Below the pieces are notes generated by a model. It was not told the origin of the DNA. It saw only the letters and a list, made by a program, of their open reading frames with translations, and searched no databases. Shown one piece after another: positions 5,208-20,765 of a stretch of DNA of 20,765 nt. The translations under genes and the position numbers were made by a program. The stretch's first letter is position 1; each line of letters begins with the position of its first letter. The DNA comes from a virus. The DNA lies in the IMG/VR virus record IMGVR_UViG_3300021138_000207, positions 1 through 20,765 of that record; one strand, written 5' to 3'.

Positions 5208-5714
5208 TTACTGATTTAATTTTGCTTGAATCGCTGCATCTTTTGCTTGCGATCCTGCACTACTTCCAAAATAAAAAGCAATTATTCCTGTCCAGGCGGT
5301 TCCCAAAGAACCCAACATAATATCTACTTCAGCGGCTTGTTCAATTTTGCCTGACATTAACGCTACTAATATTCCAAAAAAGCCAACAGTCACTGATGCA
5401 GCCAAAAATGGAGGTATCCACGATTTCACATTTTTTTGCATATCTCTTGCACTGGCTCGATCATCGTTGCTCAATTTAGCAAAGTCTAATCCAAGTTCTT
5501 GCGCTTTTGCTTTAAGCGCAATCTCGGCCTGTTGGATCGCTGCCACTTGCTCAGCAGTAAGTTTATTTGTTTCAATAGTTTTTTGAATATCATCACCAGA
5601 CATTCCAAGCGCTGATTCCAATGCTCCAACAGCCATTCCAGCTACAGGACTACCAAGCGCTGAAGCAACAGTGGGCGCTAACTTCGCTACCGTATCAATC
5701 CAAGAATCGCTCAT
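5208..5714 (-). CDS. Holin of the 3TM (gene-transfer-agent holin-like) type
   Basis: The 168-aa product fits the 3TM holin family (GTA_holin_3TM-like). There is a weakly hydrophobic Ala/Gly-rich N-terminal segment (12-36) and a charged helical middle with KLTAEQVAAIQQAEIALKAK and the typical NDDRASAR...MQK. Two strong membrane helices follow (102-120 and 132-150) and the tail FYFGSSAGSQAKD is characteristic. Holins open the inner membrane at a set time so that the cytoplasmic endolysin reaches the wall, which fits the GH24 enzyme nearby that has no signal sequence. It is the last gene of the minus operon and overlaps the upstream gene by four bases. Confidence 0.85.
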   Translation of the reverse strand: MSDSWIDTVAKLAPTVASALGSPVAGMAVGALESALGMSGDDIQKTIETNKLTAEQVAAIQQAEIALKAKAQELGLDFAKLSNDDRASARDMQKNVKSWIPPFLAASVTVGFFGILVALMSGKIEQAAEVDIMLGSLGTAWTGIIAFYFGSSAGSQAKDAAIQAKLNQ

Positions 5715-6031
5715 TTAATTTTGTCCTTTAATGTTTGTTCAATTACACTAATTTCTCTTCTGTTTTCTAATATCATGTTTCTATTGTCTTGGATTTCGTG
5801 CTCAAGGTCTTGGCGAAGTTTTTCTCTAGCCAACTCTGCTGCTGAATTTGTAGCTTGTTTATTATCAGAAGTAACTACCAAGCTAACTTTTCCGTTTAAA
5901 ACAGTGACCTCTTGGCTTAATGTAGACAAAGTTGTCATTAAATAGACCACACATGCAAATAACATTGGAAGCACTGCAAACGCAACTTTCTCTATTAATG
6001 CGCTTTTAGCATGGGCTTCTTCTAAACTCAT
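5711..6031 (-). CDS. Membrane-anchored coiled-coil protein, 106 aa (possible i-spanin)
   Basis: One membrane helix near the N-terminus (about residues 15-33, VAFAVLPMLFACVVYLMTTL) is followed by a long, charged region predicted as helix or coiled coil, including REKLRQDLEHEIQDNRNMIL. The short N-tail contains EEAHAKSALIEK. This topology, between holin and endolysin, is what an inner-membrane spanin needs, but no separate Rz1-like lipoprotein frame was recognised inside or beside it. An accessory holin or membrane adaptor is the alternative. It is coupled by overlaps to the holin downstream and the 54-aa gene upstream. Confidence 0.75.
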   Translation of the reverse strand: MSLEEAHAKSALIEKVAFAVLPMLFACVVYLMTTLSTLSQEVTVLNGKVSLVVTSDNKQATNSAAELAREKLRQDLEHEIQDNRNMILENRREISVIEQTLKDKIK

Positions 6032-6209: not shown

Positions 6210-6431
6210 TTATTTGTCGGCCTTAGAATCTAACTTTTCAAAAATCTGATCTAATTTCGTCAAAATTTTATCAATGTCGCGCCGGTAATCTTCTTTGTTG
6301 ACGTATTTCTCTGGCATGTTGTTCATCTTATCTTCAATCTTAATAATTGAAGACGAAATGTTGTTTAGAATCCACCCGCCAAAAAATCCGGCTATTCCAA
6401 ATCCAACATTAATGAGCGTTTGTGTATCCAT
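6210..6431 (-). CDS. Conserved small membrane protein next to endolysin, 73 aa
   Basis: The N-terminus MDTQTLINVGFGIAGFFGGW plus ILNNISSSI carries one Gly/Phe-rich membrane helix (about 6-23). A short charged linker (KMNNMPEKYVNKEDYRRD) and a heptad-patterned helix ending KLDQIFEKLDSKADK follow. I recognise this NVGFGIAGFFGGW...EDYRRDID layout from unassigned phage proteins found near lysis genes. Haemolysin XhlA-like or i-spanin-like function is possible. It begins one base after the endolysin stop and is probably co-translated with it. Confidence 0.75.
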   Translation of the reverse strand: MDTQTLINVGFGIAGFFGGWILNNISSSIIKIEDKMNNMPEKYVNKEDYRRDIDKILTKLDQIFEKLDSKADK

Positions 6432-6432
6432 T

Positions 6433-6876
6433 TCAACCCTGCGCGAATAGTTTTGCCTCGTTTAGCCTACGTGTTGTCAATCCTGCCAACACGCGCCCAC
6501 CTGCTTTGTTCCATTTTTCAAATTCATCATGCGCTGCTTCAAAATTGCCTTGATTGATTAACTTAAGCAAGGTGGAGTGCTGTAAGTTACCTGCGCCACA
6601 ATTAAAGCAAAAATCTACTAAGGCATCATATTGGTGCTGTGTTAATTCTACCGTGACAAATGTTTTTACCATCTTTTCAGCATGCTGCAAATCGTGTTTT
6701 AAGCGATCCACTGCTTGTTCCTCTGTGATGGTCATGCCTTGAATCACATCAGCACCAGTGCTTCCAAAACCAATCGTCCAAATACCCGCTGGACATTGAT
6801 ACGAAGTGAGTTTGCAACCTTCAGAGAGTTTAACTAGATCAATCCCATCGTGATCAAATTGTAAATTCTCATTCAT
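6433..6876 (-). CDS. Endolysin, GH24 lysozyme (T4/P21 type)
   Basis: The 147-aa product is a phage lysozyme that hydrolyses the beta-1,4 bond of peptidoglycan. The catalytic triad pattern E-8x-(D/C)-5x-T is present as Glu19, Cys28 and Thr34 in LSEGCKLTSYQCPAGIWTIG. Cys in place of the middle Asp is found in many members. GFGSTG follows, and later LTQHQYDALVDFCFNCGAGN and GLTTRRLNEAKLF complete the family pattern. There is no signal peptide or signal-arrest-release helix, so export must depend on the holin. The first eight bases overlap the end of the degenerate paralogue upstream, and the two clearly arose by duplication. Confidence 0.95.
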   Translation of the reverse strand: MNENLQFDHDGIDLVKLSEGCKLTSYQCPAGIWTIGFGSTGADVIQGMTITEEQAVDRLKHDLQHAEKMVKTFVTVELTQHQYDALVDFCFNCGAGNLQHSTLLKLINQGNFEAAHDEFEKWNKAGGRVLAGLTTRRLNEAKLFAQG

Positions 6877-7399
6877 TTACTTGCTCGGCGGTTGCTTGAT
6901 CAACAAGTTCACTACTGTCTGCTTTAATTGTTTCAACCACTGGAGTATTAGATTCATTGTTTTTTACCTCAAAAAAAGGTTGATTTTGCAACTTTTGTGC
7001 AATTAATCCTTGCATTCTTCGTTTACCGTTTTTAATCCAATTTGCATATATGACGTTTGCATCTTGACGCAAACCTGCATTTATTAAAGACGCTATGGAA
7101 TGAGCGCAAAAATCATGGTGGCCCATGTTTAAACACATATCCATCAGTTGATTAAATTGTGCTTGGGTTAAATCAACTTGTACCAGCAATCGAATGGTTG
7201 CCTCTGCATGACGTATATCATGTTCTAAACGTGCTTTAGCCTGGGCTATGTCAAACTGCATTTCTGGAACAATATCTGGCCCGCTGCTGTTATAACCAAT
7301 TTTCCATTCAGCGCCATCTTGATAGCTACCTAGCTTTCTGCATTCATCTAGCTTAGTAAAGTTAATGGTGGCACGATCAAATTTTAATTGTTCATTCAT
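6869..7399 (-). CDS. Catalytically degenerate GH24 lysozyme paralogue
   Basis: The 176-aa product aligns along its first ~145 residues with the endolysin encoded just downstream: MNEQLKFD against MNENLQFD, KLDECRKLGSYQ against KLSEGCKLTSYQ, RLEHDIRHAEATIR against RLKHDLQHAEKMVK, VDLTQAQFNQLMDMC against VELTQHQYDALVDFC. Glu19 remains, the middle residue aligns as Asp28, but one residue is deleted after it and catalytic Thr is replaced by Lys33. GFG becomes GYN, GAGN becomes GHHD and the GLTTRR box becomes GLIAQK. A roughly 35-residue acidic C-terminal tail (from about 142) is added. It is therefore likely inactive as a lysozyme. It might bind peptidoglycan, inhibit or chaperone the active enzyme, or be a virion component, since it sits directly between fibre and lysis genes. 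Confidence 0.85.
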   Translation of the reverse strand: MNEQLKFDRATINFTKLDECRKLGSYQDGAEWKIGYNSSGPDIVPEMQFDIAQAKARLEHDIRHAEATIRLLVQVDLTQAQFNQLMDMCLNMGHHDFCAHSIASLINAGLRQDANVIYANWIKNGKRRMQGLIAQKLQNQPFFEVKNNESNTPVVETIKADSSELVDQATAEQVNE

Positions 7400-7401
7400 A
7401 A

Positions 7402-9084
7402 TTAAGTCTTAATAATGAAGTAGATAGCTAAATAAGGGCTAATAGTGCTAATTGCTGTGCCCGATCCAGTATTGCCAATTGTGGTGCTGGTTGTTGTACC
7501 AGTTGTCGTTGCGGTATTGGTTGTTGTTGCTGTCGTGGTATTGGTTGTAGTTGCGGTAGATAATGTTAAAGATGTGGTTGTGCTGGTGGCAGTGCTTAAT
7601 GCCAAAGTGGTATTTGTTGTTGTGTGGGTGCTTAATGCCAATGAAGTGCTGGTATTAGTGGTTGTTCCCAAACCTTGCAGTTGCGTATTGGTGGTTGTAA
7701 ACACCGAACCCGAAGGCGTACCACCAGTTGCCCCTACGATTGAAATGCCCGTTTGAGCATTGTTAATTGTGATTAAACCTTCTTGCACTGTGCTGCCACC
7801 GGCTAGTGCTGAACCGCCACCACTCTTGGCTAAAATGATTCCACGCCCTGCTTGCTGCTGATTTGTCCAAGTATGGAAGTGACCAGGATCACTCACACTA
7901 TGAACGTGAGTGGGCAATGCATTACCCGAAAAAGTGGAAGATGAAGAAGATGCAGCCGATCCAGTGGTGTTTGAACTTGATGTAGATATTGCGCTACCAG
8001 TGGTGGTGCTCACCGATGTAGAAGTTGCAGTTCCAGTAGGAGTAGAAACTGATGTTGAAGTTGCTGTGCCAGTGGGTGTTGATGTTGAAGTTGAATTGCT
8101 GACTGAATTAGATGTGCTTATTGAATTACTGGTTGAACTTGATGTTGATACCGCTGAATGATTATGCGATGGCAAGTTCGCTGTGGATAAAGTTGTGCTT
8201 GCACTACCGCCCGTTGCCGCAGCACCATAAATACCACCCGCACCAATCGGCATCAGATTGGTATAGTTGGGCACATTAAATGTTGAACTGCCATCACCTG
8301 TGCCAAAAGTTAAACCAATGATGCTAAACAACGCACTGTAGGCTGAACGGGATAATGCTTGCCCATTACATAACACCCAGCCATTTGGTGCTGTAGCCGT
8401 AGGCCACATTGTTATACTGCCCGTTGGCATAGAGTAAGTTGAAGGCAACGGACTAGTTGCCGGATTCAATAAAATGAATGCCGGATAATTGTTGATCAAA
8501 TTATATGCAAAGGTGAGGGTTGCTCCCGCGGTAATATCGCCGGTTGCCAGCGGTACACCATTGCCTTTAAATATTAAAAATGGGCCAATACCCGTTGTGC
8601 CTAACACCAAAGTCATGGTGGGCGAATTGGTAATATTATTAAAGTCCGCTGTTAGCGTAAATGTCATGCCAACATTCGCAACAGTCAATGTGCTGATTAG
8701 CGTAGCGGTAATTGCATCTGACGTACCGCTTACCGCAGCATAGCCATAGGTGTTTTGCTGTGATTGTTCCACCGGCAAAAAGGCAGTTAATGTGCCACTC
8801 GTCATCAAGTTGGCAACATAATCGCCCGCTGTCCATCCCTGTGCGGTTGTGCCTTCTTGTCCACGCACCACTGTAAGAGTGTCATTTGTGCGATTGGTAC
8901 ACAACATAATTTCATGCTGTAGTTTGGTAGCAGCATCAGTAAGGCTAACTTTAAATGCCTGACCTGCCGTTGGGCTTGGGAAAATGTTACCTGTTCCAGC
9001 AGCTACAGAAATCGTTGTAGTTGTGGAATTAATGGATGCCAGCAACGTGCTCGATGCATTATTGGATGCAATGATGATAGACAT
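7402..9084 (-). CDS. Tail fibre protein with phage tail collar domain
   Basis: The 560-aa protein has three parts. Residues 1-212 are homologous to the whole upstream 216-aa protein (AAGTGNIFPSPTAGQAF, LCTNRTNDTLTVVRGQEGTT). Residues 217-282 form a tail collar domain (MPTGSITMWPTATAPNGWVL, DGSSTFNVPNYTNLMPIGAG). The C-terminal part starts with LPSHNHS and contains THVHS and GHFHTW, His-x-His motifs that in T4 gp12-type fibres bind metal along the trimer axis, and ends ISPYLAIYFIIKT, typical of collar proteins. Two Ser/Thr-rich tandem-repeat tracts interrupt it (310-388 and 474-537, period 12). It is probably a trimeric receptor-binding or short tail fibre. Its repeat tracts have biased composition unlike the neighbours. 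Confidence 0.88.
   Translation of the reverse strand: MSIIIASNNASSTLLASINSTTTTISVAAGTGNIFPSPTAGQAFKVSLTDAATKLQHEIMLCTNRTNDTLTVVRGQEGTTAQGWTAGDYVANLMTSGTLTAFLPVEQSQQNTYGYAAVSGTSDAITATLISTLTVANVGMTFTLTADFNNITNSPTMTLVLGTTGIGPFLIFKGNGVPLATGDITAGATLTFAYNLINNYPAFILLNPATSPLPSTYSMPTGSITMWPTATAPNGWVLCNGQALSRSAYSALFSIIGLTFGTGDGSSTFNVPNYTNLMPIGAGGIYGAAATGGSASTTLSTANLPSHNHSAVSTSSSTSNSISTSNSVSNSTSTSTPTGTATSTSVSTPTGTATSTSVSTTTGSAISTSSSNTTGSAASSSSSTFSGNALPTHVHSVSDPGHFHTWTNQQQAGRGIILAKSGGGSALAGGSTVQEGLITINNAQTGISIVGATGGTPSGSVFTTTNTQLQGLGTTTNTSTSLALSTHTTTNTTLALSTATSTTTSLTLSTATTTNTTTATTTNTATTTGTTTSTTIGNTGSGTAISTISPYLAIYFIIKT
7474..7665. repeat. Thr-rich tandem repeat within the collar fibre gene
   Basis: Residues 474-537 of the collar protein consist of imperfect 12-residue (36-bp) units of Thr/Ser with recurring L(A/T)LST: TTTNTSTSLALS, THTTTNTTLALS, TATSTTTSLTLS, TATTTNTTTATT, TNTATTTGTTTS. 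The phase is kept in frame. Confidence 0.7.
7903..8082. repeat. Ser/Thr-rich 36-bp tandem repeat within the collar fibre gene
   Basis: Residues 335-394 are five 12-residue units: STPTGTATSTSV twice, STTTGSAISTSS, SNTTGSAASSSS and STFSGNALPTHV. The two identical peptide units differ at several synonymous DNA positions, so the protein repeat is maintained by selection or is old. Confidence 0.75.
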
Positions 9085-11984: not shown

Positions 11985-12359
11985 TTATGCAGCCGGTGCA
12001 GCGTTTAATGCAGCCATTTGCTCAGCGGTCAATCCTGCGGTTTGATCGGCAGATAAAACAGCAGCCTGGTCTGAATTCATCATCAACAATTGATCTGCAC
12101 TCATTGCAGCCAATTGTTCAGGCGATAATGCTGACACTGCTTCAGTAGACATAGTGGGCACTTGCTCACTAGGAATAGCAGCAACTTGCTCAGTGGTCAT
12201 GGCTTGCACGGTTTCTGTTTCACTCACAACAGGCACTTGTGGCTGTGCAATGGTTTTGATGTTGTTGATCACATCATAAACATCTTTGGCCTTGCATTCG
12301 CCTAACGCTAACAATGCTGCATTGACCAACTCAATGGGTAAGCTAATATTAATAGACAT
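11985..12359 (-). CDS. Octapeptide-repeat protein, 124 aa
   Basis: The N-terminal part (ISLPIELVNAALLALGECKA, then KDVYDVINNIKTIAQ) looks like a short phage domain with LP.ELVNA.L..LG...Y..V...I..I, which I have seen in unassigned tail-region proteins. After a linker, residues 53-124 are nine 8-residue units of the form x-(M/L)-(S/T)-x-(E/D)-Q-x-x, such as ALSPEQLA, AMSADQLL, VLSADQTA and GLTAEQMA. The units are likely short helices or turns stacked as a rod or binding strip. The ribosome binding site GAGGA precedes the ATG. It is flanked by terminators on both sides, so it may be a separate transcript with its own promoter, not identified here. Confidence 0.75.
   Translation of the reverse strand: MSINISLPIELVNAALLALGECKAKDVYDVINNIKTIAQPQVPVVSETETVQAMTTEQVAAIPSEQVPTMSTEAVSALSPEQLAAMSADQLLMMNSDQAAVLSADQTAGLTAEQMAALNAAPAA
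11988..12203. repeat. 24-bp tandem repeat encoding octapeptides
   Basis: Nine in-frame 24-bp units code for residues 53-124 of the 124-aa protein. The consensus peptide is A-L-S-x-E-Q-x-A, and the last unit is degenerate (ALNAAPAA). The DNA copies have drifted but the frame and period are exact. Confidence 0.8.
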
Positions 12360-12859: not shown

Positions 12860-13465
12860 TTATGCCCCTAAATGTAAACCTGTTAAATCAAGATCGTTTC
12901 CAATATAACCTTTTAGAAACGTGTTAAAAGAAATGCTAATGCGTGTTTCATCTGTTTCCACCGTTTGAACCATGTGGGTTAAATGCGATGGAAACAATAC
13001 TAATTGTCCTGTTGTTGCTGGCAACCACCAAGAATCAGAATTGTACAAATTAAAGGTTTCAGCAGGTAACTTTATTTGGCTGTAGCCATCTTTGTAAAAA
13101 TAGATTTTATCTATATCTTTCTGCGCTTGAACATAAAACACCCCACTGATAAAACTATTAGGGTGCTGGTGCTTATGATGCCATTGACCTTTATCTGTGA
13201 AGTTTGCCCATGATTGCGTGATATAGGGCGCAACATCAAACTTTGGTGAATACACTTCTTTATAATATTCAGCCAATGATTCTTCACAAAACCGTGCAAT
13301 TTCTGCAAGTTCTGCGGTTTCAAACAAAGTGTTATTCACACTTGTTTTATTCCCATCATTGTTGCGCTGTTCTAAATTCTTTATAAAATTTAATTCAACT
13401 TCTGTTAAATCTGATCCAAATTCAAAATAGCTTACTGCGGTGGGAAAAAGGTTGTGGGTTATCAT
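12860..13465 (-). CDS. 2OG-Fe(II) oxygenase superfamily protein
   Basis: The 201-aa product matches the phage-type 2-oxoglutarate/iron dioxygenases (TIGR02466/2OG-FeII_Oxy_5-like), which hydroxylate an unknown substrate. The iron-binding region is QWHHKHQHPNSFISGVFYVQ (94-113), with His99 and His101 as candidate ligands, and FPSHLTHMV (158-166) with the distal His164. Arg175 in ETRISISFN (173-181) would bind the 2-oxoglutarate carboxylate. In phages these enzymes are common among tail and structural genes and may modify host or virion molecules, but no substrate is known. It overlaps the upstream 84-aa gene by four bases. Confidence 0.85.
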   Translation of the reverse strand: MITHNLFPTAVSYFEFGSDLTEVELNFIKNLEQRNNDGNKTSVNNTLFETAELAEIARFCEESLAEYYKEVYSPKFDVAPYITQSWANFTDKGQWHHKHQHPNSFISGVFYVQAQKDIDKIYFYKDGYSQIKLPAETFNLYNSDSWWLPATTGQLVLFPSHLTHMVQTVETDETRISISFNTFLKGYIGNDLDLTGLHLGA

Positions 13466-13726: not shown

Positions 13727-16132
13727 TTAGTTATGGAATTTGAGAATTACTATACCACTACCACCAGATGCACCTGCTAGTCCACCTGCTGCATTCGTTC
13801 CTCCACCACCTCCACCACCAGTATTTGGACTGCCTGCAACGGCTGCTGATCCTAATCCTCCATTACCGCCTCCACCTGAGCCACCTGGTGCGGTTGATGG
13901 AGCGGATGAATTACCGCCTCCACCACCTCCCCCTGCGTATGGCGTGCTTACGCCGGATAATGATGAAGATGATCCGTTTCCACCGGAACCGCCGTTGCTA
14001 TTCGTTACAGCAGCACCTCCAACTACTGATGCACCTCCACCACCACCGCCAGCACCAGATGCTCCATTACCGCCATTGTTACCTTGTGATGGCGTTGTTG
14101 AAGGTGTGTTACCTGAACCACCAGAACCTGCCGCAGCATTGTAACCACTTCCTCCACCACCGGAACCGCCGTTTCCTCCAGATTGTCCTGATAGTGTTGC
14201 ACCTCCACCACCACCCGCTGCACTTATTGTGCTAAAACTTGATGCATTTCCTGCGCCACCTGTTGTACTTGCTGAACCGCCATTACCACCTGCGCCAACA
14301 ACAACAGTTAATGTGCCTCCACTTGATACAGGGAAATTGGTTCCAGCTAAAAATCCTCCTGCACCACCTCCACCACCATTACTTTGACCAGAAACACCAC
14401 CTGCACCACCTGCACCACCTGCAACTACTAGATAATCAACAAGTGTGAATCCTTGTGGAACGGTAACCATTGTTGTGCCGGTTGCTGTGATGATTTGTGT
14501 GGTGTTTAGCTGAATGATGACAATACCAGAGCCGCCTGCGCCGCCTTTGACCTCACTTGCTGATCCTCCACCGCCTCCACCGCCTCCAGTATTGACAGTT
14601 CCAGAACCCCCTGGGCTACCGCCGTTAGGTGAATTACAGCCATTTCCACCACCACCGCTGCCTCCTGTTCCACCAGTTCCGGTTCCAATATATGCACCAC
14701 CACCACCACCACCTGCATACGTTACAGATGAACCAGAAATTGTAGATGTTGAACCAGCACCACCATTTCCAGGTGTTGTGCTGTTTGGAGAATTAGAACC
14801 TACTGCGCTTGCTCCACCACCACCCCCGCTGGGATATGGTGATGAAGTAAAACCGCCATTTGTTCCCCCGTTATTGCCTTGTGAAGGCGTAGTTGACGGG
14901 GTGTTACCAGAACCTCCAGCAGAAGTTCCCCCTCCGTTTGCTGCTCCACCACCTCCAGAACCACCATTACCACCGATTTGGGTTCCACCGGCTTGACCTC
15001 CATTACCTCCACCTGCCGCTGTGATTGTACTGAAAGTTGAGCTACCACCTTGTGATGCACCTGTTCCACTGCCGAAATCACACCACCCTGCCGTACCACC
15101 CGCTCCTACGGTCACGGTATATGACGTTCCGGCAGTAACGGCTAAATTTGTGCCTGTTAAATATCCACCTGCTCCACCGCCACCGGATGCCGCACCGCCA
15201 CCGCCTCCAACTACTAAATAAGATGCAGATGAATAGCCAGTGGGCACGGTGAATGAGCCAGAGCCTGTGAAATTGTATGTGGGAGTTGTGCGAGTGTAGG
15301 AGAGGATGACAACACCGCTGCCGCCTGCACCGCCATTTCCTCCAGTACCTCCACCTCCACCACCTCCACCACCTGTATTTGTAGTTCCAGCAGTTCCTGT
15401 TTGACCTGGGTTATATCCACCGTTACCCCCAACACCTGAACCTCCTGGTGCTAAACCCCCTTGAGAACCACCACCACCACCACCACCAGAATAAAAAACA
15501 GTTGTACCTGATATTGTAGATGATAAACCTGTTCCACCTGCGCCACCTTGATTAGTAGGGCTACCAAATGGGTCTCCCGAACCGCCCGCAGAATAAGCCC
15601 CGCCACCGCCACCACCACCAACTTTTCCTATTCCTGTTCCTCCATTTGTTCCTTGAGCATTAGGGGTTGTGGCAGGAGTATTTCCTAAACCGTTAGCACT
15701 TGAACTTGCGCCTGAGCCACCACCACCACTTCCTCCGTTCTGTCCTGCTAAGGATGAATTTGTACCTCCACCTCCACCGCCTGTTGCCGTGACTGTACTA
15801 AATATTGAATTTCCACCGTTTCCACCTAATGCTGCGGGCGATGTAGTTCCAGCAATACCACCTGCTCCAACAGTTATGGTATAGGTTGTTCCTGCCGTAA
15901 CAGATAAAGAATTGCCTTGAAGAAAACCTCCTGCCCCGCCACCGCCACCATTTGAACTACCAGAAATTCCACCACCACCGCCACCACCACCAGCAACCAC
16001 TAAATAATTAACAGACGTAACACCGGTGGGTGCTGTCCAATTACTTGTGGCATTAAATGTTTCAATAATGGTAATGCCAGTTGAACCAGCAGCAACCAAT
16101 GAACCAAGAAGAATCTGTAAAATTCCACTCAT
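13727..16132 (-). CDS. Glycine-rich adhesin-like tail protein with three domain copies
   Basis: The 801-aa protein starts with a short hydrophobic segment (MSGILQILLGSLVAAGSTGI), which may be an attachment segment. Then come three homologous glycine-rich copies (about 22-278, 284-541, 546-800). Each opens with a beta-strand like APTGVTSVNYLVVAGGGGGG, has a conserved GGAGG(F/Y)L.G and an YT(I/V)TVGAGG or similar, long Gly tracts and a closing GGSG(I/V)VIL or similar. Such Gly-rich sheets resemble the polyglycine-II sandwiches of phage adhesins such as S16 gp38, so a distal host-receptor role is likely. The plus strand is full of Pro-rich reading frames that are merely antisense to GGN codons. 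The gene overlaps the upstream fibre gene by an ATGA junction. Confidence 0.8.
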   Translation of the reverse strand: MSGILQILLGSLVAAGSTGITIIETFNATSNWTAPTGVTSVNYLVVAGGGGGGGGISGSSNGGGGGAGGFLQGNSLSVTAGTTYTITVGAGGIAGTTSPAALGGNGGNSIFSTVTATGGGGGGTNSSLAGQNGGSGGGGSGASSSANGLGNTPATTPNAQGTNGGTGIGKVGGGGGGGAYSAGGSGDPFGSPTNQGGAGGTGLSSTISGTTVFYSGGGGGGGSQGGLAPGGSGVGGNGGYNPGQTGTAGTTNTGGGGGGGGGTGGNGGAGGSGVVILSYTRTTPTYNFTGSGSFTVPTGYSSASYLVVGGGGGAASGGGGAGGYLTGTNLAVTAGTSYTVTVGAGGTAGWCDFGSGTGASQGGSSTFSTITAAGGGNGGQAGGTQIGGNGGSGGGGAANGGGTSAGGSGNTPSTTPSQGNNGGTNGGFTSSPYPSGGGGGASAVGSNSPNSTTPGNGGAGSTSTISGSSVTYAGGGGGGAYIGTGTGGTGGSGGGGNGCNSPNGGSPGGSGTVNTGGGGGGGGSASEVKGGAGGSGIVIIQLNTTQIITATGTTMVTVPQGFTLVDYLVVAGGAGGAGGVSGQSNGGGGGAGGFLAGTNFPVSSGGTLTVVVGAGGNGGSASTTGGAGNASSFSTISAAGGGGGATLSGQSGGNGGSGGGGSGYNAAAGSGGSGNTPSTTPSQGNNGGNGASGAGGGGGGASVVGGAAVTNSNGGSGGNGSSSSLSGVSTPYAGGGGGGGNSSAPSTAPGGSGGGGNGGLGSAAVAGSPNTGGGGGGGTNAAGGLAGASGGSGIVILKFHN
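13733..16069. repeat. Three ~770-bp repeats within the Gly-rich adhesin gene
   Basis: Copy 1 spans about 15299-16069, copy 2 about 14510-15283 and copy 3 about 13733-14497, defined by the shared start (VPTG/APTG...YLVV.GG) and end (GGSG.VIL). Copies are related at protein level but clearly diverged, particularly in the inserts between Gly tracts. Confidence 0.75.
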
Positions 16133-17036: not shown

Positions 17037-20000
17037 TTAAAATTGAATCTGCGAAGCCAATACGGTATAGGTTGCATTGGCGGTTTTTGTTACCACATAC
17101 GTGTACTGATCAATCTGATTTGCGTGACCGGTTGATGGTGCAGAACCACCTTGCCAATAGGTTGTCACACCCGTTGACGTTCCATCAATCGTCAATGTTC
17201 CATTCATATAGTAAGGCGTTGATCCCATCGTAGCCCAAACCGTCATGGTGATGGTTTGACCTGCGGATAAGAAACTGTTTAATGTGGTTGTACTGTTAAA
17301 CGCAATGTTTTGCGTCCAGTTAGCCGTTGCATTTCCAGTAAACAATTGTGAAACGCCATTTGCTAAATAAATCGTTGCATTACCGTTTGCCGTTCCACTT
17401 GCAGGTACATACGTGGTTTGCACGTTTGTTGCCACGTTAATGACGTTAAATGCAACCACTTCAACAATATCACCCGTTGCCGCACCCACTGCCAATACAA
17501 CAGTTGTACCTGTTGTTGCAGTGTAATCCGAGCCATTCAAGAACACACCATTCAAGAAAACTTGAATATAACCAACGGTGTAACTTACAGTGAATGACGT
17601 TTGACCTGATGTTGCGGTAAAACTGGTACGGGTATAAGCCGTTGGAGTGCTGGTTGCATTAATGGTGACTGCACCCGTTCCACCCGCAGGTGAAATGGTG
17701 ATGTTGGTTCCAGCCACAATTTGCGTGACAGTGCTTGACCATGCCGGTACACCCGATACGACACTAAGAACTTGACCAGTAGAACCAATGCCTAAACGTG
17801 CAGCAGTGTTTGTGCCGGATTCATAAATAATGTCACCGGTGGTTGTCATAGGATTAAGCGCATTAAATGCCGCTGCTGCCGTTGTCTGACCTGTACCACC
17901 ATAACTAATACCAAGCGTGCCATAAGCAGGTGCCGCACCTGATCCACCAGACAATAAAGGCTGACCAGATGTGCCCGATGCCGTTGCTGCGGGTGCAGCA
18001 CCCGCTCCACCACCATACACCACGCCATATTGAGTAAGTGCAGCCGATGATGCCCAAGCGCTTGATGAACTAAAATAAACAATACCGCCTGATGTGCCCG
18101 CAACGGTCAATGCTGGTGTGGTTGATGCCGTTGCTACACTAATTAAGCCACCAGTAAATGATACTGATGTAACGGTTCCCGCATTATTTGCTGCCCAAGA
18201 TGCTGTGGTTCCATTGGATGTAAGAACATATCCATTAGTACCAATAGCCAATCTTGAAGCGGTGTTAACACCTGTACCTATGATTAAATCACCGGTTGAT
18301 GTGATTGGGCTTAATGCATTAAATCCTGCACTTGCTGTTGTAGCACCAGTTCCACCATTTGCAATCGCAAGCGTTCCACCTAGTACAACCGCGCCGGTTG
18401 TAGCCGAATTGGGTGTTAAACCTGTAGTCCCCGCACTAAACGATGACACACCACTGGATGTTGCTGCTTGCCACGATGCAGTGGTTCCATTAGAAGTCAG
18501 CACATAACCTGTTGTGCCAATACCCAAGCGTGTAGCGGAATTGCTGCCATTACCGATAATTAGGTCACCGGTATTTGCGATGGGAGATAAAGCATTAAAT
18601 GCGGCTGTTGATGTTGTTGCACCCGTGCCGCCATAGCTGATACCTAATGTGCCAAAGGCCGGTGAACTTGTACCGCCAGACAATAAAGGCTGACCGGTTG
18701 TGCCTGGGCTTGTGAATCCTGTAGCTCCTGATGCAGATTGATATACAACTGCACCGGCAGTTCCACCCACTAAATTATTGGCACTGGTGCTGCTAATCGT
18801 GATTGCGCTATAAGCAATTGTTTCAACAATGTCACCCGTTGAGGCGCCTACCGCCAATACGACCGAAGTACCATTGGTTGCTGTGTAATCAGAACCGTTA
18901 AGAAATACACCGTTTAAGAATACTTCAACATATCCAACAGTATAAGAAACCGTGAAAGTGGTTTGACCTGAAGTTGCCGTAAAGCTCGTTCGTGTATACG
19001 TTGCGGTAGGTACTGTGGCATTGATCGTGACTGCACCCGTACCACCTGACGGCGAAACGGTAATGTTAGTACCCGCTATGATCTGAGTAACTGCACCTGT
19101 TGGATTTGCCCATGCAGGCACGCCAGATACAACTGTTAATACTTGCCCTGTGGTTCCAACAGGTAAACGTGAAGCAGTATTGGTGGCTGATTCGTAAATC
19201 AAATCACCAGTAGTGGTCATGGGATTTAAAGCGTTAAATGCTGCCGCTGCCGTTGTAGTACCCGTTCCACCCGCTGCAATTCCAAGCGTTCCATAGAGGG
19301 GCGAAGAACTAGCACCACCAGATAGCAATGCTTGTCCTGCGGTTCCTGTGGTTGTAGCCTGGGGTGCTGATCCTGCACCACCGCCATACATCACACCATA
19401 CTGCGTTAGAACACCAGATGATGCCCATGCATTTGATGATGAAAAGAACACCACGCCACCAGAGGTTCCAGCAACAGTTAATGCAGGTGTTGTGGTTGGT
19501 GTTGCTACAGAAATTAAACCACCTGAAAATGAAACTGAGGTTACCGTTCCTTGAACTGCATCAGCCCACGAAGGAATGCTGCCCACAACCGTTAGAACTT
19601 GGCCTGCGGTTCCTAATGCTAAACGCGCAGCAACCCCTGCGGAAGATTCATAAATAATGTCTCCCGCTGTAGTCATTGGGTTTAGTGCATTAAATGCGGC
19701 TGCTGCGGTAGTGGCTCCTGTACCGCCATTCGCAATATTTAATGTACCACTTAAGGTAATACTGCCGGTAGAACCCGTTGATGGGCTAAATCCGGTGGTT
19801 CCTGCGCTAAATGACGTTACACCACCAGATGCAGCAGCCTGCCAAGAAGCTGTCGTGCCATCAGAGGTCAAAACGTAACCGCTTGAACCAATACCTAATC
19901 GTGTTGCACTGTTAGTGCCATTACCAAGAATCAAGTCACCGGTTGAAGTGATCGGTGATAAAGCGTTAAAGCCCGCACTTTTACTGGTAGCACCTGTACC

Positions 20001-20765
20001 GCCTGCTGTAATCGCAAGCGTGCCCCAGGTTGGGCTACCAGTTCCACCAGATAACAATGCTTGTCCTGATGTACCCACACCTGTAAAGCCAGTTGAATTG
20101 GCTCCTGTTTGGTATAAAAGCTCACCAGAAGCACCACCAACAATATTATCGGCATTTGTATTTACAACTGTTTGCGTATTGTACGCAACGGTTTCAACTA
20201 TATCGCCCGCAGTACAACCCACTGCCAATTGCATGGATGTGCCATTGGTTGCGGTGTAATCGCTGCCATTTAAGAACACACCGTTTAAGAATACTTCCAA
20301 ATATCCAACGGTATATACCACTGAGAATGTGGTTTGCCCTGCTGAAGCGGTGAAACTTGTGCGCGTGTATGCTGCATTCAATCCAGCAGCATTAATGGTC
20401 ACAACACCTGTGCCGCCTGAGGGCGAGATGGTGACGTTTGTGCCCGCAACAATTTGCGTAACACCACCCGTTGATGCTTGCCAGGATGCGGTTGTGCCAT
20501 TTGAGGTTAATACATAACCATTTGAACCAATTGCTAAACGCCCAGCAGTATTGGTTCCAGTACCTAAAATTAAATCGCCCGCAGTAGTGATGGGTGACAA
20601 AGCATTAAATGCAGCCGATGCAGTTGATGCTCCAGTACCTCCATTTGCAATTCCAACACTGCCCCATGATGGCGCACTGCCACCATTAGAAACTAATACT
20701 TGGCCTGTTGTTCCTGCTGCGGTCACCGCAATTGCTGATCCAGTGCCATAAGCCACACCGCCCAA
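17037..20765 (-). CDS. Large repetitive tail fibre protein, 5' end outside the window
   Basis: The frame is open to the right window edge (1242 residues visible), so the N-terminus is missing. The visible part is a chain of ~58-residue modules of the form (I/L)xxGGTGxTTAxAAFNALxP(I/M)T..GD(L/I)I...(Y/Q)VLT, with GGTG at residues 42, 255, 347, 499, 712, 803 and 957. A second module, YTRTSFTA..GQT.F.V.YTV, then EVFLNGVFLNGSDYTAT, appears at 133, 590 and 1044. The order of modules repeats every ~455 residues. The last ~125 residues (1118-1242) form a different, non-repeated tip with WTQNIAF and TMTVWATMGSTPYYMNGT. It is a probable trimeric long fibre or spike shaft. A frameshift is not seen. Confidence 0.88.
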   Translation of the reverse strand: MGGVAYGTGSAIAVTAAGTTGQVLVSNGGSAPSWGSVGIANGGTGASTASAAFNALSPITTAGDLILGTGTNTAGRLAIGSNGYVLTSNGTTASWQASTGGVTQIVAGTNVTISPSGGTGVVTINAAGLNAAYTRTSFTASAGQTTFSVVYTVGYLEVFLNGVFLNGSDYTATNGTSMQLAVGCTAGDIVETVAYNTQTVVNTNADNIVGGASGELLYQTGANSTGFTGVGTSGQALLSGGTGSPTWGTLAITAGGTGATSKSAGFNALSPITSTGDLILGNGTNSATRLGIGSSGYVLTSDGTTASWQAAASGGVTSFSAGTTGFSPSTGSTGSITLSGTLNIANGGTGATTAAAAFNALNPMTTAGDIIYESSAGVAARLALGTAGQVLTVVGSIPSWADAVQGTVTSVSFSGGLISVATPTTTPALTVAGTSGGVVFFSSSNAWASSGVLTQYGVMYGGGAGSAPQATTTGTAGQALLSGGASSSPLYGTLGIAAGGTGTTTAAAAFNALNPMTTTGDLIYESATNTASRLPVGTTGQVLTVVSGVPAWANPTGAVTQIIAGTNITVSPSGGTGAVTINATVPTATYTRTSFTATSGQTTFTVSYTVGYVEVFLNGVFLNGSDYTATNGTSVVLAVGASTGDIVETIAYSAITISSTSANNLVGGTAGAVVYQSASGATGFTSPGTTGQPLLSGGTSSPAFGTLGISYGGTGATTSTAAFNALSPIANTGDLIIGNGSNSATRLGIGTTGYVLTSNGTTASWQAATSSGVSSFSAGTTGLTPNSATTGAVVLGGTLAIANGGTGATTASAGFNALSPITSTGDLIIGTGVNTASRLAIGTNGYVLTSNGTTASWAANNAGTVTSVSFTGGLISVATASTTPALTVAGTSGGIVYFSSSSAWASSAALTQYGVVYGGGAGAAPAATASGTSGQPLLSGGSGAAPAYGTLGISYGGTGQTTAAAAFNALNPMTTTGDIIYESGTNTAARLGIGSTGQVLSVVSGVPAWSSTVTQIVAGTNITISPAGGTGAVTINATSTPTAYTRTSFTATSGQTSFTVSYTVGYIQVFLNGVFLNGSDYTATTGTTVVLAVGAATGDIVEVVAFNVINVATNVQTTYVPASGTANGNATIYLANGVSQLFTGNATANWTQNIAFNSTTTLNSFLSAGQTITMTVWATMGSTPYYMNGTLTIDGTSTGVTTYWQGGSAPSTGHANQIDQYTYVVTKTANATYTVLASQIQF
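17421..20648. repeat. ~1.37-kb super-repeat in the long fibre gene
   Basis: Equivalent residues recur at 457- and 454-residue spacing: GGTG 42/499/957, 255/712 and 347/803, YTRTSF 133/590/1044. In DNA one matching site lies at 20286, 18915 and 17553, spaced 1371 and 1362 bp. Two full copies (about 20648-19278, 19277-17904) and a partial third (17903-17421) are visible. Confidence 0.85.

Follow-up and report, generated by a model that had tools for sequence, protein, structure and literature searches.

A rare, remodelled lysozyme duplicate beside an ordinary endolysin gene in one small phage lineage

The lysozyme gene pair and its surroundings

The window analysed here is the whole stretch of 20,765 nucleotides from IMG/VR record IMGVR_UViG_3300021138_000207. 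It carries two adjacent GH24 lysozyme genes on the same strand, an upstream member (copy 1) and a downstream member (copy 2), which lie between a tail collar/fibre gene and the gene of a small conserved protein, arranged as follows.

7402..9084, (-): tail collar/fibre protein gene, upstream of copy 1, assigned by profile matches
6869..7399, (-): copy 1, putative GH24 pseudolysozyme of 176 aa (ORF, PF00959, alignment and AlphaFold2 model)
6872..6961, (-): C-terminal extension of copy 1 (residues 147-176), acidic and modelled with low confidence
6869..6876, (-): 8-nt overlap between the end of copy 1 and the start of copy 2, ATGAATGA, from the ORF coordinates
6433..6876, (-): copy 2, canonical GH24 endolysin of 147 aa (ORF, PF00959 and motif Glu19-X8-Cys28-X5-Thr34)
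6210..6431, (-): conserved small protein of 73 aa (phrog_462), directly after copy 2 and in the same place after the single lysozyme of relatives
5208..5714, (-): protein of 168 aa (phrog_1544), a holin candidate with two apparent transmembrane stretches (topology by eye)

A preliminary description, made from the letters of the window, had reported an adjacent GH24 pair that aligns over almost its whole length, and this is confirmed at the coordinates above. BLASTP aligned copy 1 with copy 2 at 56 of 144 identical residues (39%) and 80 positive ones with one gap, and the E value of 1e-33 excludes a chance resemblance. Both proteins match the PF00959 profile above its curated cut-off of 22.3 bits (163.8 bits for copy 2 and 65.4 bits for copy 1), and both match the endolysin family PHROG 7. 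Over the aligned codons the DNA of the two genes is 50% identical, with 37% identity at third positions. Copy 1 starts 2 nt past the end of the collar/fibre gene, and a strong Shine-Dalgarno sequence is absent before both lysozyme genes. The 8-nt overlap is expected to couple translation of copy 1 and copy 2, and since it is combined with the lack of a strong Shine-Dalgarno sequence at either start, the two proteins are probably made in step.

The extra C-terminal tail of copy 1 comprises about 30 residues with a net charge of -6 and had no match among the sequences searched. This extension was also compared with the ALTTAQ-repeat protein (PF20080, 124 aa) whose gene lies at 11985-12359 (-) amid the tail genes, and the apparent resemblance was discarded. 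Neither a hydrophobic signal at the N-terminus of copy 1 nor a membrane stretch is visible. Charge complementarity, considered as a possible hint of a heterodimer, found no support either, both copies being acidic (pI 5.4 for copy 1 and pI 5.4 for copy 2).

Among the tail genes, 12860-13465 (-) codes for a member of the 2OG-Fe(II) oxygenase family (PF13759, E 1e-22), and two very large Gly/Ser/Thr-rich repetitive tail proteins with many repeated modules are encoded at 13727-16132 (-) and 17037-20765 (-), the first of them containing PF21722.

Active site and predicted fold of copy 1

The motif Glu-X8-(Asp/Cys)-X5-Thr is reported to occur in every published structure of this endolysin family (PMC8228626). 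Copy 2 contains it in full and with canonical spacing (E19, C28 and T34). The corresponding residues of copy 1 read Glu19-X8-Asp28-X4-Lys33, which departs from the full motif in that Thr34 is replaced by Lys33 and one residue has been lost from the active-site loop. In addition, GFG is changed to GYN and GLTTRR to GLIAQK, Gly38, Arg136, Arg137 and Glu140 are replaced, and the RR/E of the last helix has become QK/N. The preliminary description had listed the Thr to Lys replacement, the one-residue loop deletion, the altered GFG and GLTTRR motifs and the acidic tail, all of which are present in the alignment. Two points were absent from it: copy 1 retains the general-acid Glu19 together with an acid, Asp28, where copy 2 has Cys28; and it has lost Glu140, which is strictly conserved in the family.

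GH24 frames were gathered from related IMG/VR loci and aligned, yielding 67 distinct sequences in a close set and 148 in a wider one, in which one fragment that did not cover the Thr and Gly columns was set aside. Within the close set, the Thr/Ser, the second Gly of GxG and Arg136-Arg137...Glu140 are missing from the two copy 1 alleles alone, and these alleles are likewise the only sequences of the wider set without the Thr/Ser or the second Gly. All other GH24 sequences covering these positions keep the Glu, the Asp/Cys and the Thr/Ser, and no other GH24 pair with one altered member was found among 329 sequences. At 25 positions the same residue occurs in at least 85% of the family; copy 1 shares 12 of these residues, among them Glu19, Tyr26, Asn92, Gly94, Trp122 and Leu133, and has lost 13; its changes extend beyond the active site alone.

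Copy 1 was modelled with AlphaFold2 from 40 aligned sequences. The best of five models (mean pLDDT 77.6, compared with 67.8-72.3 for the other four) adopts a lysozyme fold with a block of pLDDT 85-95 over residues 21-120, a short and uncertain last helix, and a tail of pLDDT <50 from residue 149. Structural comparison with VIA-align gave the GH24 lysozyme PHAb11 as the top match (9kbs, Z 13.1, rmsd 3.0 Å over 129 residues), and the muramidase domain of SpmX (6h9d, Z 12.1) was among the closest solved matches. The model of copy 2 (pLDDT 89.6) matched 9kbs with a Z of 24.7 and an rmsd of 1.0 Å over 143 residues, although the difference between the two models may partly reflect a lack of data, because the alignment for copy 1 held no sequence between 39% and 98% identity to it. 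Taking the models as they are, we read copy 1 as a loosened or remodelled lysozyme fold, with most of the alteration around the hairpin and last helix. The earlier statement that the fold-determining residues are kept therefore stands for the overall fold and not for all of the residues, because copy 1 departs from the family at 13 of the 25 conserved positions and its last helix is modelled with little confidence.

Because the Thr is missing and the hairpin is changed, canonical inverting hydrolysis by copy 1 should be lost or very weak, and weak residual activity is possible because the catalytic Glu19 and the acid Asp28 are retained. Of the proposal that copy 1 is inactivated, the disrupted active site is thus upheld; with Glu19 and Asp28 still in place, inactivation is a judgement from sequence, and the product is better described as one whose activity is probably absent or strongly reduced.

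Origin, distribution and possible constraint

Eight related contigs (L005 and L006-L012) carry a single active lysozyme each, which is 79% identical to copy 2 in L005 and about 66% identical in L006-L012. In the three contigs inspected in full (L005, L006 and L012), this lysozyme gene directly follows the collar gene and precedes the 73-aa gene, as in the window. Since relatives have one lysozyme at that site between the same flanking genes, copy 1 is a lineage-specific tandem duplicate made in place. Phylogenetic analysis placed copy 1 in a nine-row clade (support 100/99) formed by the endolysins that the phage group itself encodes; the copy 1 branch, at 2.12 substitutions per site, is more than ten times as long as that of copy 2 (0.17). 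A branch of this length makes the exact placement unsafe, and both the gene position and the N-terminus agree with the tree, the MNEQLKFD of copy 1 resembling the N-terminal extension of the clade (MNENLQFD, MNENLKFD and MHEDLHFD). The tree tests are compatible with a duplication on either side of the L005 split.

The pair had been thought worth seeking in related phages, and it was found in one other record only, the near sibling IMGVR_UViG_3300010885_035075 (L003, L004, L090, L169 and L328 are parts of this record); relatives beyond it carry one lysozyme each, and copy 1 is known from two records. DNA identity between the sibling and the window is 97.7% over the shared late block. The sibling is a different virus, because elsewhere it lacks about 430 bp of the window and a further 3 kb shows 89% identity. 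When viral contigs were searched with a DNA pattern for the diagnostic EWKIGYNS of copy 1, only the sibling contig was recovered, and peptide patterns detected no close relatives of copy 1 in bacteria (84,980 species genomes). Compared with isolated phages, copy 1 was below 60% identity in all places, and the best identities among the matches listed were 26-32%, mostly to annotated endolysins. Copy 1 is a real, rare remodelled lysozyme duplicate known from one small phage lineage.

The segment that the sibling lacks corresponds to 5600-6029 of the window (about 3346-3460 in L003). A 106-aa gene at 5711-6031 within this region has an inner-membrane-spanin-like layout, and the window and the sibling also differ at the N-terminal end of the holin candidate of 168 aa. 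Other variation was seen elsewhere among the collected GH24 frames. A single in-frame TAG interrupts the frame at L245:6511-7050 beyond the active-site loop, in a region where homologues carry Gln; it would represent a nonsense mutation, a sequencing error or amber recoding. The lysozymes at L015:4983-5693, L020:3286-3996 and L056:5001-5792 are extended at the C-terminus by a long segment that closes with a hydrophobic, membrane-type stretch.

In a neutral simulation that started from copy 2 and drifted to the observed protein identity of copy 1, about 6 in-frame stops were expected on average and only 0.3% of runs had no stop (P 0.003); copy 1 contains none. This supports the preliminary view that the intact frame is not that of an ordinary decaying pseudogene. 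The copy 1 alleles of the window and the sibling differ by 3 amino-acid-changing and 4 silent substitutions (NG86 dN/dS about 0.18), and for this one allele pair the probability of at most 3 amino-acid changes out of 7 under neutrality is 0.03-0.09. Together, the stop-free frame and the allele comparison favour selection on the copy 1 protein, the evidence from one allele pair being thin. It is correspondingly improbable that copy 1 is a transient decaying duplicate, free of constraint and with a frame left open by luck or recency. Such decay would agree with the very long branch, with the existence of just two near-identical known alleles, and with the 13 lost family-conserved positions and the poorly formed last helix of the model, but it is at odds with the absence of stops at 39% identity, with the excess of silent over amino-acid changes between the alleles, and with the retention of helical body residues and Glu19.

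Possible role of copy 1 and comparison with known systems

The explanation that we prefer, and to which we assign roughly an even chance, is that the tandem endolysin duplicate copy 1 is a remodelled pseudolysozyme, made with active copy 2 and tuning lysis. The phage endolysin gene was duplicated in tandem, after which the downstream copy 2 remained a normal muramidase and rapid change in the upstream copy 1 probably broke canonical catalysis, through the Thr to Lys replacement, the shorter hairpin loop, and the loss of the GxG Gly and the last-helix Arg-Arg...Glu. Throughout, copy 1 has retained an uninterrupted reading frame, the catalytic Glu and the helices that make up the body of the lysozyme fold. 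Produced in step with copy 2 via the overlapping genes, it would engage the substrate of copy 2 but leave it uncut, and its most likely use would be to bind this substrate or copy 2 without efficient cutting: after holin opening, copy 1 may bind peptidoglycan strands or the endolysin, and lysis would be tuned as a result. In a variant of this scheme, copy 1 would be wall-binding on the virion.

A more specialised role, in which copy 1 has lost catalysis and serves solely as the phage's own inhibitor or pacemaker of its endolysin, holding back or steering copy 2 at lysis, has in our estimate a fairly small probability. Copy 1 could instead be an attenuated or altered muramidase that cuts slowly or with another specificity, using Glu19, much as the phage-derived domain of SpmX reportedly retains weakened activity, and we regard this as unlikely while granting it some weight. 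The retained Glu19 and the acid at the Asp/Cys position agree with such an enzyme, as does the close structural match to the SpmX domain 6h9d, in which the Glu is also kept and the Thr is absent (Met); yet copy 1 has substitutions at the Thr, the GxG Gly, Arg136/137 and Glu140 as well as an altered loop spacing, and these occur together in no other of the 148 sequences. Quite unlikely in our view is a virion-associated wall-binding protein, made with the tail genes and binding peptidoglycan at entry. The start of copy 1 immediately after the collar gene, in tail-gene orientation, would suit such a protein, and its extra C-terminal tail could serve for attachment, but the tail matched nothing found, and the gene position is uninformative on virion location because the ordinary endolysin of relatives sits at the same place after the collar gene.

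Copy 2 is a typical representative of the GH24 endolysins of the P22, P21 and PHAb11 group (PF00959, PHROG 7). Copy 1 shares their fold and ancestry and differs from them in lacking the Thr, the loop spacing, the GxG and the Arg-Arg...Glu. Two GH24 genes also lie side by side in L171, L173, L174, L175 and L178, which have the phrog_462 gene in common with the window; unlike copy 1 and copy 2, both enzymes of these pairs have the full catalytic motif and are far apart in the tree. The only other complete GH24 pairs found among the 329 sequences consist of two active-motif enzymes. In the pair shared by L171, L173, L174, L175 and L178 (7515-7961 and 8070-8612 in L174), the second lysozyme has a signal-like or lipoprotein-like N-terminus.

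T4 Spackle (gp61.3), a small phage protein inhibiting the gp5 tail lysozyme, is a precedent showing that phages can encode proteins which bind and regulate lysozymes of their own kind (PMC7677548). Spackle is a periplasmic early protein unrelated to lysozyme, whereas copy 1 is a GH24 homologue and lysozyme paralogue whose N-terminus shows no hydrophobic signal sequence, and its gene adjoins tail and lysis genes. In the literature searched, with subscription papers outside its scope, we found neither a precedent for an inactive endolysin paralogue nor a description of a phage that carries a non-catalytic paralogue next to an active endolysin of its own. Should copy 1 be inert and bind the wall or the enzyme, it would represent a lysis-control part built from lysozyme itself, and its lineage, with single-copy relatives and a duplicated sibling, would offer a small natural system for watching an enzyme turn into a pseudoenzyme.

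By analogy, the nearest model for copy 1 is SpmX. In this protein of the Caulobacterales, a phage-type GH24 domain has reportedly been turned to non-lytic use, and Randich et al. are said to have described in 2019 that the phage-derived domain has reduced activity and a new role. The printed sequence of the SpmX muramidase domain (6h9d) keeps the Glu and has Met at the Thr position, and SpmX thus resembles copy 1 as a phage-type GH24 protein with the catalytic Glu and without the Thr. The two differ in that SpmX is a bacterial membrane protein acting in development, with further membrane domains at its C-terminus, whereas copy 1 is the 176-aa product of a free-standing phage gene adjoining an active endolysin, with a low-confidence tail and without a visible membrane stretch, and in that the substitutions of copy 1 are different and its loop is shortened. 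The SpmX study (Randich et al. 2019) is cited in PMC8228626 and PMC10045481. As an analogue, SpmX cautions against calling copy 1 dead; in SpmX, bacteria have tamed a phage lysozyme for purposes of their own, whereas copy 1 is a phage's own paralogue beside its active endolysin.
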